From: Verrucomicrobiaceae bacterium
Lineage (GTDB): Bacteria; Verrucomicrobiota; Verrucomicrobiia; Verrucomicrobiales; Verrucomicrobiaceae
Assembly: GCA_016795365.1 (NCBI GenBank)
Contig: JAEUHN010000017.1
Location: 310,001-374,000 of the forward strand
Length of the DNA: 64,000 nt
Direction: 5' to 3'
The position numbers and the translations under genes are program-made. The notes under the pieces were generated by a model. The model was given only the letters and a program-made list of their open reading frames with translations, ran no database searches and was not told the origin of the DNA. Below are positions 31,748 through 47,984 of this stretch, piece by piece; position 1 is the stretch's first letter; each line of letters begins with the position of its first letter.

Positions 31748-31821
31748 GCACCCGTAGCTCAATGGATTAGAGCGTCTGACTACGGATCAGAAGGTTACAG
31801 GTTCGAGTCCTGTCGGGTGTA
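31748..31821 (+). tRNA. tRNA-Arg(ACG), canonical
   Basis: A full cloverleaf: acceptor 31748-31754 with 31814-31820 (first pair G-U), D-arm with the normal GG in the loop, anticodon ACG read from loop CTACGGA, T-loop TTCGAGT, discriminator A. CCA is not encoded. It serves as an internal reference for a normal tRNA of this genome, in contrast to the array at 42.6-44.8 kb. Confidence 0.95.
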
Positions 31822-42059: not shown

Positions 42060-42629
42060 GGGTCCGATGGCCCACAAGCAAGCAACCGCAAGTATTCCAG
42101 ACCATGACTTAGCATTTCATTATTCCATCAGGGCAACAAAAAGCCCCGTCACCGGCGGCAACCGATGACGAGGCAGAACGGCCACTGAGCACGAACAGTT
42201 TAGCGACTGCACCTCGAACTCCGTAACCTGATCGCAGGTTACCCAGTCATCACCCTTCGTCAACCCATCGCCCTGCGCGATGCGCGTGTGAGACGAGGTC
42301 TCTGATGGCAATCGATGTCCGTGTTCACTGCCGCTTTGGAGCCTCCAAAAGTTTCCAATTCTCCAACGGCTTGAGTGATCACGCTGATAGGTATTCCATG
42401 TATCTGTCCGCGACCCCAGATCAGTCACGGGAGGTGTGCCACAAACACCGAAACATCCGCCACGTAAATCCAGCGGGTGCGATCTCTGAAACACGAGATG
42501 GCAGCGGTGTCGGTCCATTTTTTCAAATAGCCCGGACATCCCCTCAAGGGTGCCGGGAACAGTTCTTTGTTCAATCAACTGGGCGCGCGTGCGACGATGC
42601 AAGTTGTGCGCGCGCCCGGACTTTCTGAA
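42060..42629. other. Non-coding stretch with many perfect hairpins
   Basis: No ORF here reads like a protein; the long minus-strand frame 42120-42734 has shadow composition. Visible palindromes include GTAACCTG/CAGGTTAC around 42226-42245, TTTGGA/TCCAAA around 42336-42350, and GGGCGCGCG/CGCGCGCCC around 42581-42617. T-loop-like strings (TGCGAC, TGCAAGT) occur near 42590-42606. It may hold further degenerate tRNA-like units or a separate RNA, but none could be folded convincingly. Confidence 0.4.
42136..42174 (-). terminator. Minus-strand rho-independent terminator
   Basis: Read on the minus strand, a 13-position stem (11 paired; 42162-42174 with 42143-42155) is followed by TTTTTG. A TTGACG promoter-like box lies about 120 nt upstream on the same strand, so a short antisense-direction RNA is possible. 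Confidence 0.5.
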
Positions 42630-42704
42630 ACGGAGGTGGCAGACAAGCAATGCAGCGCGACTCCAAATCCGCCGATGTGGGAGCGTTACCCACCCTCCGT
42701 GCCA
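42630..42704 (+). tRNA. tRNA-Trp(CCA), non-canonical elbow
   Basis: The acceptor ACGGAGG (42630-42636) pairs perfectly with CCTCCGT (42694-42700). Discriminator G and encoded CCA follow. The D-arm GCA/TGC has loop GACAAGCAA (no GG). The anticodon loop CTCCAAA gives CCA at 42663-42665; the anticodon stem has a bulged C. The T-arm GTGGG/CCCAC has loop AGCGTTA instead of TTCRANY. G73 and an A1-U72 pair are the bacterial Trp identity elements. It is the first clear member of the array. Confidence 0.8.
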
Positions 42705-42870
42705 GGTGTCCGAAGAGAATTCACAAGACTGCAAGGAAGGCTACGCCATCGGGCCGGACGGTTTGGATGGGAGAGAGAAGAGCCGTTGAAGCAACAGCAC
42801 GCCCGAGAAGCGACGCTGATGCTGTCCGGTGGGTGTGCGCGGTCCCTTGTGGTCTTTTGGATTCTTTATT
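42705..42870 (+). other. Array interval without a resolved tRNA
   Basis: 166 nt between the Trp and Met genes. The hairpin ACAGCA/TGCTGT near 42794-42825 is visible, but no complete acceptor/T-arm set could be found. It may contain a further degenerate or insertion-bearing unit. Confidence 0.35.
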
Positions 42871-42943
42871 GGCGGGAAGGAGGAGTCTCCAGCCAGGTCT
42901 CATAAGCCCGGCTTTCTGTGTGCGACTCACAGTCCCGCAACCA
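42871..42943 (+). tRNA. tRNA-Met(CAT), non-canonical elbow
   Basis: The acceptor GGCGGGA (42871-42877) pairs with TCCCGCA (42933-42939) in six of seven positions. Discriminator A and encoded CCA follow, then the linker TTTCATT that recurs in the array. The anticodon loop CTCATAA gives CAT at 42901-42903, with a stem of four pairs in five. The T-arm CTGTG/CACAG has loop TGCGACT. The D-arm is reduced (GGAG/CTCC with loop GAGT). It ends 23 nt before the GNAT gene. Confidence 0.65.
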
Positions 42944-42966
42944 TTTCATTCAACATCAACAACACC

Positions 42967-43494
42967 ATGTTCACCGAACTAACCCTCCCCATCAGTCGCG
43001 GACGCCTTCGACGGGCTTGCGATGAAGACCTTCATGATTTGGTCCGCCATGCCAACAACCCGAAGTTGATTCATTGGCTGGTGGACGCCTTCCCGCATCC
43101 ATACACCGAGGCTCATGGCCGTGCTTTCTTGAAGCGAGTCGCGGAGGATCGAAGCGAAGAAGTTTTCGCCATCGAGATTGCCGGCAAGTTAGCTGGCGAG
43201 ATTGGCCTTCGTCCGGGTCAACACGAGCGACGTTTCGTCTGCGGCATCGGTTACTGGCTTGCCGAAGAGTTTTGGGGCCACGGCATCATGAGCGAGGCCG
43301 TGCGTGTCACGACGGATCATTTGCTGAGCGACCTTGGCTTTGTCCGCATCGAGACGGATGTCTATGAGCCCAACGTCGGCTCGCAACGAGTGCTCTTGAA
43401 GGCTGGCTTTCAGCTGGAGTCACGTCGTCGAAAGGCCGTCGTGAAGCACGGCACGATCTACGATTGCCTGCACTTCGCAAAGCTCCGTGATTGA
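42967..43494 (+). CDS. GNAT N-acetyltransferase (RimJ/RimL type) inside the tRNA array
   Basis: The 175-residue acetyltransferase has ISRGRLRRACDEDLHDLVRH at the start, and the acetyl-CoA site GIGYWLAEEFWGHGIMSEAV, where the usual R/QxxGxG/A loop is modified. ETDVYEPNVGSQRVLLKAGF is the conserved RimL-type C-terminal motif. It lies between tRNA-Met and tRNA-Ile genes, with the same spacer style (CCATTTCATT), so it is probably co-transcribed with the array. RimJ/RimL proteins modify protein N-termini, and other GNATs act on charged tRNA. A role for this one in handling the array's aminoacyl-tRNAs is a guess from position. Start at 42967; the frame is open upstream through the tRNA. Confidence 0.85.
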   Translation: MFTELTLPISRGRLRRACDEDLHDLVRHANNPKLIHWLVDAFPHPYTEAHGRAFLKRVAEDRSEEVFAIEIAGKLAGEIGLRPGQHERRFVCGIGYWLAEEFWGHGIMSEAVRVTTDHLLSDLGFVRIETDVYEPNVGSQRVLLKAGFQLESRRRKAVVKHGTIYDCLHFAKLRD

Positions 43495-43517
43495 TCCCAG
43501 GCACTCATTTCTCAATT

Positions 43518-43591
43518 CCCTCCGTAGCTCAAAAGCAGAGCCGTCCGTTGATAACGGACAGACCGAGGCGCGATACCTCGCGGAGGGACCA
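43518..43591 (+). tRNA. tRNA-Ile(GAT), non-canonical elbow
   Basis: The acceptor CCCTCCG (43518-43524) pairs with CGGAGGG (43581-43587), then A and encoded CCA. The D-arm GCTC/GAGC has loop AAAAGCA (no GG). The anticodon stem GTCCG/CGGAC has loop TTGATAA, anticodon GAT at 43550-43552. The T-arm CGAGG/CCTCG has loop CGCGATA (G55, C56). All arms pair perfectly. Confidence 0.88.
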
Positions 43592-43603
43592 TTTCAATTT
43601 CAT

Positions 43604-43679
43604 CGCTGGATGACGTAGTTAGTCTGCGCGTCTCCCTGAAGAGGAGAAGGTCTTGGTGCAATTCCAAGTCCAGCGGCCA
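43604..43679 (+). tRNA. tRNA-Phe(GAA), non-canonical elbow
   Basis: The acceptor CGCTGGA (43604-43610) pairs with TCCAGCG (43669-43675), then G and encoded CCA. The anticodon stem TCTCC/GGAGA has loop CTGAAGA, anticodon GAA at 43638-43640. The T-arm CTTGG/CCAAG has loop TGCAATT. The D-arm is unusual and can be drawn as CGTA/TGCG around GTTAGTC. Discriminator G73 differs from the A73 expected for bacterial Phe tRNA. Confidence 0.85.
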
Positions 43680-43686
43680 ACTCATC

Positions 43687-43818
43687 GCGCTATTGGTGTA
43701 ACAGTAACACGCCGGTTTTCCAAACCGATGTCGTCAGGGCAACGCCTTGCCGCAGCAGCGGCATCCATGAAGCGAAGCCAAACTGCATGGGCGAAGCCAA
43801 CACTGACATAGCGCACCA
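43687..43818 (+). tRNA. tRNA-Gly(TCC) with about 60-nt insertion in the T-loop
   Basis: The acceptor GCGCTAT (43687-43693) pairs perfectly with ATAGCGC (43808-43814), followed by A and encoded CCA. The D-arm GTGT/ACAC has loop AACAGTA. The anticodon loop TTTCCAA gives TCC at 43719-43721. The T-stem GTCAG (43733-43737) pairs with CTGAC (43803-43807), but the enclosed loop is 65 nt instead of 7. The loop starts GGCAACG and contains hairpins TGCCGC/GCGGCA, CCATG/CATGG and two GCGAAGC-type mini-hairpins. A homologous insertion sits in the Leu(CAA) unit. Whether it is spliced or retained is unknown. Confidence 0.75.
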
Positions 43819-43827
43819 CTTCATCAT

Positions 43828-43904
43828 TCCCTTCGTGGTGTCATCAGTCAGCACTCGACCCTGTGAAGGTCGCGGAGCCGGTGCGAATCCGGCCGAGGGA
43901 ACCA
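43828..43904 (+). tRNA. tRNA-His(GTG), non-canonical elbow
   Basis: Acceptor TCCCT(T)CG (from 43828) pairs with CGAGGGA (43894-43900) with one bulged T, then A and encoded CCA. The D-arm GTGT/GCAC has loop CATCAGTCA. The anticodon stem CGACC/GGTCG has loop CTGTGAA, anticodon GTG at 43863-43865. The T-arm GCCGG/CCGGC has loop TGCGAAT. The bacterial His hallmark (G-1 opposite C73) is missing: the discriminator is A. Confidence 0.82.
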
Positions 43905-43911
43905 TTTCATC

Positions 43912-43986
43912 CATGCGCAAGGCAAAGAGACCAGCCACTGCGCTGCAACCGCAGGCTACTCGGTGCAAGTCCGAGGCGCATGTCCA
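43912..43986 (+). tRNA. tRNA-Cys(GCA), non-canonical elbow
   Basis: The acceptor CATGCGC (43912-43918) pairs perfectly with GCGCATG (43976-43982). The discriminator is T, the key Cys identity base, followed by encoded CCA. The D-arm is GGC/GCC with a ten-base loop lacking GG. The anticodon stem CTGCG/CGCAG has loop CTGCAAC, anticodon GCA at 43945-43947. The T-arm CTCGG/CCGAG has loop TGCAAGT. Confidence 0.88.
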
Positions 43987-43994
43987 CTTTTCAA

Positions 43995-44070
43995 CGGATA
44001 CGAGGGAGTCAGCAAACCCGCTCGGCTTGGGACCGAGAGATACCGAGGGCAGCACTCGGGTGTCCGACCA
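43995..44070 (+). tRNA. tRNA-Pro(TGG), non-canonical elbow
   Basis: The acceptor CGGATAC (43995-44001) pairs with GTGTCCG (44060-44066; one G-U), then A and encoded CCA. The D-arm is GGG/CCC with loop AGTCAGCAAA. The anticodon stem CTCGG/CCGAG has loop CTTGGGA, anticodon TGG at 44028-44030. The T-arm CCGAG/CTCGG has loop GGCAGCA, the most divergent T-loop of the set but still with G55 and C56. Confidence 0.82.
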
Positions 44071-44076
44071 TTTCAT

Positions 44077-44151
44077 CCCCTTGTAGCCCAATGCAGAGGC
44101 ACTTGCCTCAGAAGCAAGTCAGTGCGGGTGCGACTCCTGCCAAGGGGACCA
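44077..44151 (+). tRNA. tRNA-Leu(CAG) with short variable loop, non-canonical elbow
   Basis: The acceptor CCCCTTG (44077-44083) pairs perfectly with CAAGGGG (44141-44147), then A and encoded CCA. The anticodon stem CTTGC/GCAAG has loop CTCAGAA, anticodon CAG at 44109-44111. The T-arm GCGGG/CCTGC has loop TGCGACT. The variable region is only five bases (TCAGT), whereas Leu tRNAs of bacteria carry a long variable arm. Either LeuRS recognition differs or the tRNA is charged with something else. Confidence 0.82.
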
Positions 44152-44161
44152 ATTTCCAAAT

Positions 44162-44237
44162 GCTCTCGTAGCTCAATAGACAGAGTGCCGCGCTTCGAAC
44201 GCGGAGGTTGCGGGTGCAAGTCCTGCCGAGAGCGCCA
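44162..44237 (+). tRNA. tRNA-Arg(TCG), non-canonical elbow
   Basis: The acceptor GCTCTCG (44162-44168) pairs perfectly with CGAGAGC (44227-44233), then G and encoded CCA. The D-arm GCTC/GAGT has loop AATAGACA. The anticodon stem CCGCG/CGCGG has loop CTTCGAA, anticodon TCG at 44195-44197. The T-arm GCGGG/CCTGC has loop TGCAAGT. Confidence 0.88.
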
Positions 44238-44243
44238 ATCAAA

Positions 44244-44336
44244 GGAGCGTGACCACGACAAGCGAGCGTGCGTGGTTTGCTAAGCCAACGGTGCCACATC
44301 TTGCGGCATGAGGTGCAAGTCCTCCGCGCTCCGCCA
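44244..44336 (+). tRNA. tRNA-Ser(GCT), class II, non-canonical elbow
   Basis: The acceptor GGAGCGT (44244-44250) pairs with GCGCTCC (44326-44332; one G-U), then G and encoded CCA. The D-arm CACG/CGTG has loop ACAAGCGAG. The anticodon loop TTGCTAA gives GCT at 44279-44281. A long variable arm (TGCC/GGCA) marks class II as expected for Ser. The T-arm has four pairs and loop TGCAAGT. Confidence 0.82.
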
Positions 44337-44345
44337 TTTCTTCTT

Positions 44346-44421
44346 CACCGCGTCGTCTAGCCAGACAGGACGTCGGCCTTTCAAGCCGAGAACACGGGAG
44401 CGAAACCCGTCGCGGTGGCCA
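44346..44421 (+). tRNA. tRNA-Glu(TTC), non-canonical elbow
   Basis: The acceptor CACCGCG (44346-44352) pairs perfectly with CGCGGTG (44411-44417), then G and encoded CCA. The D-arm GTCT/GGAC has loop AGCCAGACA. The anticodon stem TCGGC/GCCGA has loop CTTTCAA, anticodon TTC at 44380-44382. The T-arm ACGGG/CCCGT has loop AGCGAAA. Confidence 0.88.
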
Positions 44422-44428
44422 TTTCATC

Positions 44429-44502
44429 GGACCTCAAGCATTGAAGTGATGCAGCGTGCTTTTAACGCGCAGAGCAGGGAGCGTTACCCTGGTGGTCCAC
44501 CA
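44429..44502 (+). tRNA. tRNA-Lys(TTT), non-canonical elbow
   Basis: The acceptor GGACCTC (44429-44435) pairs with GTGGTCC (44492-44498) in six of seven positions, then A and encoded CCA. The D-arm GCAT/ATGC has loop TGAAGTG. The anticodon stem GCGTG/CGCGC has loop CTTTTAA, anticodon TTT at 44461-44463. The T-arm CAGGG/CCCTG has loop AGCGTTA, identical to the Trp unit. Confidence 0.85.
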
Positions 44503-44520
44503 ATCGTCAAAACCTCACAC

Positions 44521-44544
44521 GGCAGTGAGATCGGAGTTACTTCG
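44521..44544 (+). repeat. GGCAGTGAG...GTTACTTCG element, copy 1
   Basis: The first of three copies of a motif GGCAGTGAG - 3 to 5 nt - GGRGTTACTTCG (others at 44719-44741 and 44862-44884). The GTGAG half pairs with CTCAC just upstream to form a small hairpin with loop ACGGCA. Each copy stands directly before an aberrant tRNA-like unit. Confidence 0.6.
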
Positions 44545-44669
44545 TAGCTCAAGAGTAGAGCAGCGGCTCAAAACCGTTGGTTGCAGGTGCGAGCGCCATG
44601 CCGCGGAGCGGTATTTCAAAACGCGAAGCGCAAAATGCACAGGCGAAGCCAATCCTGCCAAGCGCTTCC
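44538..44669 (+). tRNA. tRNA-like unit Leu(CAA) with T-loop insertion, acceptor unresolved
   Basis: The D-arm GCTC/GAGC has loop AAGAGTA. The anticodon loop CTCAAAA gives CAA at 44569-44571. The T-stem GCAGG (44583-44587) pairs with CCTGC (44654-44658), enclosing 66 nt that begin TGCGAGC and are homologous to the insertion in the Gly unit (shared GCCxTGCCGC, AGCGG, GCGAAGC, GGCGAAGCCAA). No clean 7-bp acceptor or CCA is visible. The 5' strand TACTTCG belongs to the repeated GTTACTTCG element. It may be non-functional as an adaptor. Short variable loop again despite the Leu anticodon. Confidence 0.5.
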
Positions 44670-44725
44670 GCGCATCATACCTCCGATCGTCTTTCTCCGC
44701 GTTCCAATCATCGCCAGGGCAGTGA

Positions 44726-44768
44726 GGCGGGAGTTACTTCGCTGTTAACGAAACCAAACCTCCCGCCA
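44726..44768 (+). tRNA. Armless mini-tRNA-like element, anticodon Asn(GTT)
   Basis: Only two stems are present. The outer stem GGCGGGAG (44726-44733) pairs with CTCCCGCC (44760-44767). An inner stem TTCG/CGAA (44738-44741, 44749-44752) carries the loop CTGTTAA, a perfect anticodon loop for GTT. D- and T-arms are absent. The 3' end can be read as G73 followed by CCA (44765-44768). It is preceded by the GGCAGTGAG element. It could be an armless tRNA, a processing signal or a degenerate remnant. Confidence 0.4.
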
Positions 44769-44800
44769 GCGTTTCTCCCTGGCATTCTATTTCTAATTGT

Positions 44801-44857
44801 TGTCTGCGGGCAGAATGCCCGCCGCACTTGGGACAGGCAAGATGCCTGTCCTACTTC
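44801..44857. repeat. Twin palindromic intergenic repeat
   Basis: Two adjacent perfect hairpins: GCGGGCA/TGCCCGC (44806-44822) and GGACAGGCA/TGCCTGTCC (44831-44851), each with a 3-nt loop. The sequence style (GGACAGGCAAGATGCCTGTCC) is that of dispersed palindromic repeats I know from several environmental phyla. Confidence 0.75.
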
Positions 44858-44860
44858 ACG

Positions 44861-44984
44861 AGGCAGTGAGCATCGGGTTACTTCGACTCAAGATCGCGTG
44901 GTCGCCGGTTCGAATCCGGCTCGTCCCAACTTCGACGGGACGATAGCTCAGTGGTAGAGCGCGTAACGTCCCGCTGCACTTTTC
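44861..44984 (+). ncRNA. YrlA-type Y RNA candidate with circularly permuted tRNA-like module
   Basis: The 3' half of a canonical-looking tRNA precedes its 5' half. The T-arm GCCGG-TTCGAAT-CCGGC (44904-44920) and acceptor strand TCGTCCC (44921-44927) are joined by a 9-nt loop to acceptor strand GGGACGA (44937-44943). The D-arm GCTC-AGTGGTA-GAGC (44946-44960) follows. The open ends pair as an extended stem: GCAG/CTGC (44863-44866, 44974-44977), CGGG/CCCG (44874-44877, 44970-44973) and TTAC/GTAA (44878-44881, 44963-44966), with asymmetric bulges. Bacterial YrlA RNAs are known to join a Ro-binding helix to exactly such a permuted tRNA mimic, and a Ro60 gene lies downstream. A T-rich tract (ACTTTTCT) follows. 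Confidence 0.7.
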
Positions 44985-45008
44985 TCCTCGTGGTTGTGAA
45001 GGTCGGCT

Positions 45009-45871: not shown

Positions 45872-47299
45872 ATGTTCTTCAATACCCAACGCAAAGCCCC
45901 CACCAAAACCACCAACCTCGCCGGCGGCGAAGCTTTCACCGAGACGCCGAAGCTCGAACTCGTGTCCGTGCTGCTCACCAGCACGCTCAAGGACGAGTTC
46001 TACCGCAAGGCCGATGCGACCGTGAAGCGCGTGAAGCAGCTCGTGGCCGAGATCCCGGACAAGTCGTTCAGCGCGAAGGCCGCTGTGTATGCCCGCAATG
46101 AAGCGGGGATGCGCAGCGTGACGCACCTCGTCGCGGGTGAGATCGCGAAGGCCGTCAAAGGCCAGGCGTGGACCGCGCCTTTCTATCGCAAACTCTGCCG
46201 TCGCCCGGATGACGCGCTCGAAATCCTCGCGTGCTACACCGCGCAGTATGGCCGCCCGATCCCGAACGCCCTCAAAAAGGGTCTCGGTCAGGCGCTTGCC
46301 GAGTTCGATGGGTATCAGCTCGCCAAGTATCGTCGTCAGGGTGCCGAGCTTTCGCTCGTGGACTTGGTGAATCTCGTTCACCCGCCCCACAGCGAACCGC
46401 TGGCGCAACTCATGAAGGGCTCTCTCGCTCCTGCGGAAACGTGGGAGACCAAGCTCACGCAGGCTGGCCAGAAGGCCGAGTCGGAAGACGAAGCCGAGGC
46501 CAACAAAGCGGAAGCCTGGGAGCAGCTCATCACCTCGCGCAAGTTGGGCTACTTCGCCCTGCTGCGGAACCTGCGGAACATCCTCACCGCCGTGCCGCAC
46601 CTCATCGACGATGTGATTGCGCTGCTCACGGATGAACGCCTCATCAAGCGTTCGCTCGTGCTGCCGTTCCGATACACGACCGCCTTCGAGGCGCTGGAGA
46701 AGGATCATCCAAACGGAGTTCTGCGAGTGATCGCAGCGCTCAGTGAGGCGGTGGATTTTTCGTTGCAAAACGTGCCGAAGTTCCCGGGCAAGACCTTGGT
46801 CGCGCTCGATGGGTCCGGTTCGATGATGGGACGTCCGATCAAGATCGGCTCCCTCTTCGCGGCGGTGCTGGCGAAAGCCAACGACGCCGACGTGATGCTC
46901 TTCAGCGACGACGCGAAGTATGTCGCGCTCAACAAACGCGACAGCACGCTCACGCTCGCCCGCTGGCTGGAAAGCCAGTGCGCCTCCGCCGGGACGAACT
47001 TCCACGCCATCTTCCAGCGCGCGAACCGCGCCTACGATCGCGTGCTCATCCTCAGCGACATGCAAGGCTGGATCGGAGGCCACGCGCCAACGGCAACGTT
47101 CGCGCAGTGGAAGGCGAAGCACTCGGCGAACCCGAAGGTCTTCTCCTTCGACCTCAACGGCTACGGCACCCTTCAGTTCCCTGAACGCGAAGTGTATGCC
47201 CTCGCCGGCTGGTCGGACAAGAGCCTGGAGATGCTCCAGTTCCTCGACGCCGACAAACGGGCGCTGATCAACGAGATCGAGAAGATCCAGTTGGTGTAG
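45872..47299 (+). CDS. rsr: Ro60/TROVE-domain RNA-binding protein (Rsr)
   Basis: The 475-residue bacterial Ro60 orthologue is a ring of helical HEAT-like repeats (about 25-320) that binds Y RNA on its outer face and misfolded RNA 3' ends in its hole. TROVE motifs include TLKDEFYRKADATVKRVKQL, SFSAKAAVYARNEAGMRSVT and HLVAGEIAK. The C-terminal von Willebrand A domain (about 325-475) has an intact metal site: KTLVALDGSGSMMGRP (DxSxS), AGTNFHAIFQ and ILSDMQGW. In known systems Ro60 and Y RNA tether PNPase; pnp lies about 4 kb upstream. The Y RNA candidate and tRNA array lie immediately upstream, with one opposing gene between. Confidence 0.95.
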   Translation: MFFNTQRKAPTKTTNLAGGEAFTETPKLELVSVLLTSTLKDEFYRKADATVKRVKQLVAEIPDKSFSAKAAVYARNEAGMRSVTHLVAGEIAKAVKGQAWTAPFYRKLCRRPDDALEILACYTAQYGRPIPNALKKGLGQALAEFDGYQLAKYRRQGAELSLVDLVNLVHPPHSEPLAQLMKGSLAPAETWETKLTQAGQKAESEDEAEANKAEAWEQLITSRKLGYFALLRNLRNILTAVPHLIDDVIALLTDERLIKRSLVLPFRYTTAFEALEKDHPNGVLRVIAALSEAVDFSLQNVPKFPGKTLVALDGSGSMMGRPIKIGSLFAAVLAKANDADVMLFSDDAKYVALNKRDSTLTLARWLESQCASAGTNFHAIFQRANRAYDRVLILSDMQGWIGGHAPTATFAQWKAKHSANPKVFSFDLNGYGTLQFPEREVYALAGWSDKSLEMLQFLDADKRALINEIEKIQLV

Positions 47300-47402
47300 C
47301 GCGAGACAGTTCAACCTTTAACCAATCGTGTTGTCCCGGTGTCATGCCGGGGCAGCACGACCTCATGGACCGACACCGCTGCTCAAACTCAGCAGCATCG
47401 TC

Positions 47403-47984
47403 ATGAAAATATCCATCCACCAATCCACCGTCCTCGTCCTCAACAAGTGCTGGCAGGCTATCGACACGAAGACGCCTGCGCAGGCTTTCTGCATGATGGC
47501 GGGCGATAGTGCTACAGCGCTCGACATTGGCGACGACGGCACCATGACGCCCGCGCGGTGGGAGGATTGGCTGAAGCTGCCGGTGCGCGCTCGGGATACC
47601 AGCGTGGGGACGGCGCGCGGTTTGATCCGTGTGCCGACGGTGATCGTGCTCGCGCGATTCGCGAAGGTGCCGAAGCGTCGGCCTCGGTTCTCGCTGCACA
47701 ATGTGTGGGAACGCGATGGCGGCAGGTGCCAATACACGGGCCGCAAGCTGAAGCCGAGCGAAGGCAACATCGACCACATCGTGCCGCGCTCGCGTGGAGG
47801 CTCGACATCGTGGGAAAACTGCGTGCTCGCGCACCGCGAGATCAACACGAAGAAGGCCGACCGCACGCCGGAGGAAGCGGGGCTCAAGTTGTTGCGTGCG
47901 CCATCGGTGCCGAAGGAACTGCCCATGCACCTGTTCATCTCCAATCATCACGGTGTGCGTGACTGGGAGATGTTCATTGAATAA
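47403..47984 (+). CDS. HNH endonuclease
   Basis: The 193-residue protein has an N-terminal domain of about 95 residues (QSTVLVLNKCWQAIDTKTPA). An HNH nuclease domain follows: NVWERDGGRCQYTGRKLKPSEG, then NIDHIVPRSRGGSTSWENCVLAHREINTKKAD, with the DHI-P, GG-x-W-x-N and H residues intact. The usual second zinc-ligand CxxC pair is partly replaced (CQYTG has one Cys). Similar HNH proteins are stand-alone nucleases of unknown target. It follows the Ro60 gene by 103 nt in the same direction and may belong to the same unit. The ATG at 47403 is chosen over an open frame from 47328. Confidence 0.85.
   Translation: MKISIHQSTVLVLNKCWQAIDTKTPAQAFCMMAGDSATALDIGDDGTMTPARWEDWLKLPVRARDTSVGTARGLIRVPTVIVLARFAKVPKRRPRFSLHNVWERDGGRCQYTGRKLKPSEGNIDHIVPRSRGGSTSWENCVLAHREINTKKADRTPEEAGLKLLRAPSVPKELPMHLFISNHHGVRDWEMFIE

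Follow-up and report, generated by a model that had tools for sequence, protein, structure and literature searches.

The stretch of DNA analysed here (the window) comprises 64 kb (contig positions 310001–374000) of the 6.7 Mb genome of a member of the Verrucomicrobiaceae, and carries an array of unusual tRNA genes closely followed by three Y RNAs and by genes for Ro60 and an HNH endonuclease, the whole locus extending to 47984. The array units are cloverleaves with G55-C56-R57 (R, purine) in the T-loop and a D-loop without GG. The elbow contact between G18 and pseudouridine 55 (Psi55), treated as a near-universal feature of tRNA, is typically replaced by A18-G55 in units of this kind, which are called rewired below. 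The flanking genes are those for PNPase and glutamate synthase; PNPase, 1 kb upstream, was considered as a conserved neighbour and rejected, being unmatched at related loci. No phage structural gene was noticed in the stretch of the window read, and this array is not placed in a phage genome. The array is made up as follows.

42630..42704 (+), Trp(CCA) unit and CCA; D-loop ACAAGCA, T-loop AGCGTTA; 1-base insertion in the anticodon stem; intact in relatives (L032, L034, L042)
42871..42943 (+), Met(CAT) unit and CCA; T-loop TGCGACT; D-loop shortened to four bases, 1:72 mismatch
42967..43494 (+), GNAT acetyltransferase gene interrupting the array (Pfam PF13302, 5.6e-25)
43518..43591 (+), Ile(GAT) unit and CCA; D-loop AAAAGCA, T-loop CGCGATA
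43604..43679 (+), Phe(GAA) unit and CCA; T-loop TGCAATT
43687..43760 (+), Gly(TCC) remnant; D-loop AACAGTA, T-loop start GGCA; 3' side of the T-arm and acceptor lost; Rfam 23.4 bits, below cut-off; intact in the sister genome (L031)
43829..43904 (+), His(GTG) unit and CCA; T-loop TGCGAAT
43912..43986 (+), Cys(GCA) unit and CCA; D-loop AAGAGACC, T-loop TGCAAGT, U73
43995..44070 (+), Pro(TGG) unit and CCA; D-loop GTCAGCAA, T-loop GGCAGCA
44077..44151 (+), Leu(CAG) unit and CCA; short variable region, D-loop AATGCAG, T-loop TGCGACT
44162..44237 (+), Arg(TCG) unit and CCA; D-loop AATAGACA, T-loop TGCAAGT
44244..44336 (+), Ser(GCT) type II unit and CCA; T-loop TGCAAGT
44346..44421 (+), Glu(TTC) unit and CCA; D-loop AGCCAGACA, T-loop AGCGAAA
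44429..44502 (+), Lys(TTT) unit and CCA; D-loop TGAAGTG, T-loop AGCGTTA

Just 5' of the first unit (42580–42618) is a strong inverted repeat, gggcgcgcg...cgcgcgccc, possibly a leader hairpin.

The units were checked with a loop-blind cloverleaf finder, which scores stems, anticodon-loop features, U8, A14 and CCA and leaves the letters of the T-loop unscored. It returned nine intact units at 43518–44499, most of them independently recovered by Rfam and ARAGORN; the T-loop reads xGC-R in 9/9, the D-loop has GG in 0/9, and an encoded CCA follows 9/9. The Ser unit, of type II, is intact by eye. The sequence-only reading of this DNA had assigned the A18/G55 elbow to every unit with both loops, on stems otherwise intact. 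The xGC-R T-loop and the missing GG hold for all the units, and A18 does not: Leu(CAG), with the D-loop AAUGCAG, has U18, its G19-C56 pair being retained in agreement with the persistence of that pair proposed earlier. Likewise the stems are sound in the nine finder units and in Ser, and damaged in Trp, Met and Gly. A Leu(CAA) unit counted as a member of the array had to be withdrawn, as it lies (about 44545–44612) inside a Y RNA (44516–44712) and outside the tRNA run. The tRNA-Arg(ACG) at 31748, cited earlier as an ordinary tRNA, does show GG and TTC, and so do 40/40 of the genome's other tRNAs that were read.

The rewired signature is present in 16/16 other Ro60-linked loci of the family read at length (L031–L046). 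Between 9 and 31 units were recovered per locus, mostly with G55, from arrays lying upstream of a Ro60 of the same clade (56–95% identity); these relatives keep larger arrays than the genome of the window. In the first set of units, 289 of 311 carry G55 and the remaining 22 carry U55, and the canonical consensus of G18G19 with T54U55C56 is not followed. Nearly every Verrucomicrobiota Ro60 of the window's clade has an array. Scanning of named genomes also found arrays in Chthoniobacter flavus Ellin428, Brevifollis gellanilyticus and Opitutaceae, although at three Ro60 loci of the last group the DNA examined contained none. The Ro60 gene of C. flavus Ellin428 (L092:10001–11436) appears frameshifted in the deposited sequence, the match length not being a multiple of three and the translation containing stops. 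The array-pattern search covered Verrucomicrobiota genomes and viral contigs. In its strict form, requiring two T-arms, the pattern was matched in 13 of 388 Verrucomicrobiota genomes as against zero for a reversed-pattern control, and the matches include loci which lack Ro60 but possess HNH and RtcB. The recurrence of the signature goes far beyond what chance would give. The refuting condition set earlier, that such loops would turn up in random decayed tRNAs and lack conservation in relatives, was not borne out.

On the Ro60 tree a branch (100/99) sets the 25 Verrucomicrobiota rows apart, and the scored rows show two changes of elbow state. In Bacteroidota and Chloroflexota, too, tRNA arrays are present at Ro60 loci, but their elbows are ordinary (G18/U55 in 61 of 79 units, A18/G55 in one). 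A second, divergent Ro60 lineage (~30% identity) is found in the same family as the window (L018–L029); ARAGORN found no tRNA in the adjoining DNA examined.

Among the matches listed for the strict pattern are many viral contigs in which all or some of the array units have the rewired elbow. At least 90% of units are G55 in 19 of the 74 such viral arrays with at least five units, and 40 of the 74 are mixed, figures which do not measure prevalence since the pattern itself selects for G55. In the mixed viral arrays every isotype is present in both elbow states, and an isotype-specific pressure was rejected for that reason. A phage fragment (L330, in a viral record of 28.9 kb) encodes RtcB, 30 G55 tRNAs, HNH, a head maturation protease and a portal protein, and a viral contig (L302) combines tail fibre, portal, Ro60 and an array. 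All 81 of the Verrucomicrobiota units tested are nearer to a viral G55 unit than to the ordinary tRNA of the same isotype from the window's genome, the viral pool being the larger. The closest match to the Verrucomicrobiota units is the viral contig L329/L248, in which the one protein searched was no phage gene; since it could be a bacterial fragment, the phage case rests on L330 and L302. The tRNAs recovered from Xanthomonas phage XacN1 are canonical (U55 in 28/28), and those of Myrna, Phosso and one huge phage of 635 kb are U55 as well; neither these four nor blastn of a rewired array, which gave short matches only, revealed an isolate phage with a rewired set. In the 635 kb phage (L346, LR745206.1, 17899–18894) four of the 20 recovered tRNAs have the T-loop ATCGTAA or ATCGTTA, with U55 retained and A-U in place of U-A at 54:58.

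About 1,000 distinct G55 units, from phages and bacteria and representing all twenty amino acids, were compared. Positions 18 and 55 are coupled: the counts for 18/55 are A/G 588, G/U 371, G/G 4 and A/U 40 in viral arrays, and A/G 451, G/U 21, G/G 4 and A/U 5 in Verrucomicrobiota (Fisher p about 1e-215 and 3e-21). Mutual information between 54 and 58, which are U-A, G-G, A-U or C-A, is 0.94 and 0.86 in the two sets, compared with shuffled maxima of 0.044 and 0.032, and the pairs 8:14 and 15:48 covary too. The tertiary pairs of the L-shape (8:14, 15:48, 54:58, 19:56 and 18:55) are all represented, 18:55 in the altered form A-G. Compared with the sister genome (95% Ro60 identity), 28 stem pairs have changed, 20 by double compensatory substitution, seven with pairing preserved and one with pairing broken, the Glu pair in this comparison being probably not orthologous. 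Among 20 Ile units 97.6% of cells pair, 14 of 21 pairs show two-sided change, and 0/500 shuffles did as well. The covariation tests pool related units, so that counts are not independent events, and the finder had selected paired stems, both of which inflate the values; slid controls collapse. Taken together, the covariation indicates that the array units are selected and not debris, and it bears out the earlier proposal of a coordinated, selected change at 18 and 55 across the whole set.

Many of the features on which charging depends are retained. G3:U70 is found in 45/46 Ala units and in 9/1,007 others (21/22 and 24/24 Ala units in the separate sets, against 5/465 and 4/542 others). In viral and Verrucomicrobiota units alike the discriminator is 100% isotype-correct for Cys (U), Asp (G), and Ile, Pro and Val (A), and further acceptor identity elements are kept by Asn (U1-A72), Pro (C1-G72) and Trp (A1-U72). 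Overall, identity elements are in place for Ala, Cys, Asp, Ile, Pro, Val, Trp and Asn, and partially so for His, Gly, Met and Phe. CCA is encoded in 91% of Verrucomicrobiota units. G19-C56, R57 and G53-C61 are kept, the T-stem is normal, and the 51-63 spectrum is broadly like that of canonical viral units. The array units are probably chargeable tRNAs; the retention of G19-C56, R57, G53-C61 and the Ala, Asn, Pro and Trp identity elements, with every isotype involved, argues for charged, decoding-competent molecules and against their exclusion from EF-Tu and the ribosome.

Downstream of the array the locus continues with the following features.

44516..44712 (+), Y RNA 1, with the Ro60-binding-type motif GGCAGTGAG...GTTAC and an inserted tRNA-like module (motif and fold)
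44715..44784 (+), Y RNA 2, a short stem-loop with the same GGCAGTGAG...GTTAC motif (motif and fold)
44855..44995 (+), Y RNA 3, YrlA-like (RF02553, 39.6 bits, E 1.4e-6, below the gathering score), motif present
45872..47299 (+), Ro60 (TROVE domain) gene (PF05731, 1.3e-17, plus family alignment)
47328..47984 (+), HNH endonuclease gene (PF13395), of a family recurring beside rewired arrays in phages and Verrucomicrobiota

With a TROVE gene adjoining the Y RNAs and three copies of the motif GGCAGTGAG(N)GTTAC, this is a Ro60-Y RNA locus. The motif is found at 21/28 related Ro60 loci compared with two occurrences in 1.26 Mb of control sequence. The tRNA-like module of Y RNA 3 retains canonical TTCGA and GG loops. 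RtcB was found at 16/28 Ro60 loci and at 7/12 further loci to which the array pattern had led, and HNH at 20/28 and 8/12, respectively. The linkage to Ro60 suggested earlier is frequent; Ro60 as an obligatory partner was rejected, because arrays without it exist, usually beside HNH and the RNA ligase RtcB. GNAT, present at few loci only, was rejected as a core gene. The HNH family (window 47328–47984; L330:5364–5945) is weakly similar to the HNH domains of Cas9/IscB and PtuB. The best RtcB match in the window's genome, at 20.6 bits, is below cut-off and not convincing. The module is thus reduced in this genome: Ro60, Y RNAs and HNH are present, there is no convincing RtcB, and some units are decaying.

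What might such a set be for? The explanation which we favour, with a probability of about one half, is that these arrays are mobile, near-complete replacement tRNA sets, aminoacylatable and with an A18-G55 elbow in which G19-C56 is kept, which belong to an RNA-damage module and would escape damage directed at the T-loop or elbow. The module, common to phages and Verrucomicrobiota, would comprise the HNH nuclease, RtcB, RlaP or RNA ligase, and often Ro60 with Y RNAs. When ordinary tRNAs are damaged the rewired set may take over decoding. G55 cannot be converted to Psi55, and the units, having no TPsiC sequence, would be invisible to agents which recognise the T-loop or elbow of all tRNAs; this would explain why every isotype is changed rather than one. 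To our knowledge, the anticodon nucleases known so far are isotype-specific, and with every isotype affected such a nuclease is an unlikely cause. The buried 18-55 contact has been swapped while the exposed G19-C56 face, which RNase P and the ribosome recognise (PMC4810234), has been kept. Precedents have been published: a tRNase cutting between T and Psi of the T-loop (PMC9086364), induction of an RtcB-Ro60-Y RNA operon by tRNA damage (PMC7790460), and phage tRNAs which counter tRNA-cleaving defences (PMC11555353, PMC10264068). We infer the attacker, the expression of the array, its part in translation and the reason why the elbow was rewired.

Several observations weigh against this explanation. 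No elbow-directed attacker was identified at any locus examined. G-1:C73 is often missing in His units, A73 is found in many Gly units, and the acceptor ends of Met units are variable. Many Leu units of Ro60-linked and phage arrays (L033, L034, L072, L105) have a variable region of 5 nucleotides in place of the long arm. In Escherichia coli G18:U55 contributes to leucine identity, and leucylation is reported to show no correlation with the variable arm (PMC9976931); because of the short variable region and the role of G18:U55 in E. coli, leucylation of the array Leu units is uncertain. In some rewired arrays of Verrucomicrobiota (L032, L041, L045 and others) Glu(TTC), Met and Arg(TCT) often have canonical elbows. 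The copy in the window is partly decayed, and the inflation of the covariation values noted above also counts here.

It is possible, if distinctly less likely, that the elbow is simply independent of modification. A18-G55 would be stable without Psi55 or 5-methyluridine 54 (m5U54), allowing spare or phage tRNAs to fold fast when modification enzymes are limiting, and no attacker would be needed. Psi55 is the only chemistry strictly removed by G55, and the diversification of 54:58 into several covarying pairs is what one might expect had modification at 54 become dispensable. The host, however, has TruB, and the named phage sets that were read keep U55 (28/28 in XacN1), so that missing modification does not pose a problem in general.

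We consider it improbable that the units are decoys, that is, tRNA mimics which take no part in decoding and serve to bind or saturate RNA-repair enzymes, Ro60 or tRNA-cleaving effectors. The linkage to Ro60 and Y RNAs would suit such a role, as would the missing long variable arm of many Leu units, but a decoy has no need of Ala G3:U70, Asn U1-A72, Pro C1-G72, Trp A1-U72, isotype-specific discriminators or an encoded CCA, all of which are kept. An elaboration of the replacement-set explanation, to which we give similarly little credence, would make the elbow a code for self and non-self: the HNH of the module, or a partner effector, would destroy tRNAs with G18/Psi55, the immune A18/G55 set would sustain translation of its owner, phage or bacterium, and RtcB, RlaP and Ro60 would repair or clear the wreckage.

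Very unlikely, in our opinion, are dedicated aminoacyl donors for non-ribosomal reactions such as staphylococcal peptidoglycan synthesis. A few dedicated cell-wall tRNAs of altered sequence are known (PMC9976931) and some arrays contain a GNAT gene, but every isotype is represented, the T-stem is normal, as are G19-C56 and G53-C61, arrays occur in phages, and the genes which recur at array loci included no recognisable peptidyl or aminoacyl transferase. The parallel which the sequence-only reading had drawn with staphylococcal tRNA-Gly is not supported, on the same grounds, R57 and the identity elements being kept as well. Decay of ordinary tRNA copies describes the damaged Trp, Met and Gly units of the window's genome, and for the family as a whole it is refuted by the compensatory changes, the tertiary covariation and the conservation across families and phages.

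About a thousand natural A18-G55 tRNAs show that the buried contact is exchangeable and the exposed G19-C56 face is not, and they constitute a natural experiment on the purpose of U55 and Psi55. The rewiring points to selection on all tRNAs at once, unlike that exerted by isotype-specific anticodon nucleases, and the loci tie RtcB repair and Ro60-Y RNA particles to phage tRNA sets within a single module. Were the self/non-self code true, the rewired tRNAs would form a second, parallel set for decoding, marked by a molecular passport of their own.

Neither such tRNAs nor tRNA arrays linked to Ro60 were found described in the literature searched, which was confined to non-subscription papers. 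To judge from the sequences, what we describe is a real and selected variant of the tRNA sets within an RNA-repair module common to phages and bacteria. Phage and bacterial tRNA arrays such as that of XacN1 are similar in their dense tRNA genes on one strand, many isotypes and, often, RNA-repair genes, but XacN1 has canonical T-loops throughout whereas rewired arrays alter the elbow set-wide. Phage tRNAs which escape anticodon nucleases (PMC10264068), or make up for the loss of tRNATyr to PtuAB (PMC11555353), are likewise supplied against a tRNA-targeting attack; they do so by a change in the anticodon loop or by the dosage of particular isotypes, unlike the rewired sets, in which the contact of T-loop and D-loop is changed in all isotypes. 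The staphylococcal non-proteinogenic tRNA-Gly (PMC9976931) is similarly off-consensus and not an ordinary elongator, but it is one isotype which has lost its EF-Tu determinants, in contrast to arrays with many or all isotypes in which G19-C56 and the T-stem are kept. tRNA-Pyl and mitochondrial tRNAs without GG or TPsiC (PMC7609411) share a non-canonical elbow; they are a single special tRNA or organellar sets, and show no paired A18/G55 replacement with G19-C56 kept. The Salmonella Rsr-YrlBA-RtcBA operon (PMC7790460) brings together Ro60, a Y RNA with a tRNA-like domain and RtcB, and responds to damaged tRNAs. The text of that paper, as far as it was searched, names no tRNA genes in the operon, whereas in the loci described here the tRNA set is central and is accompanied by HNH and RlaP.

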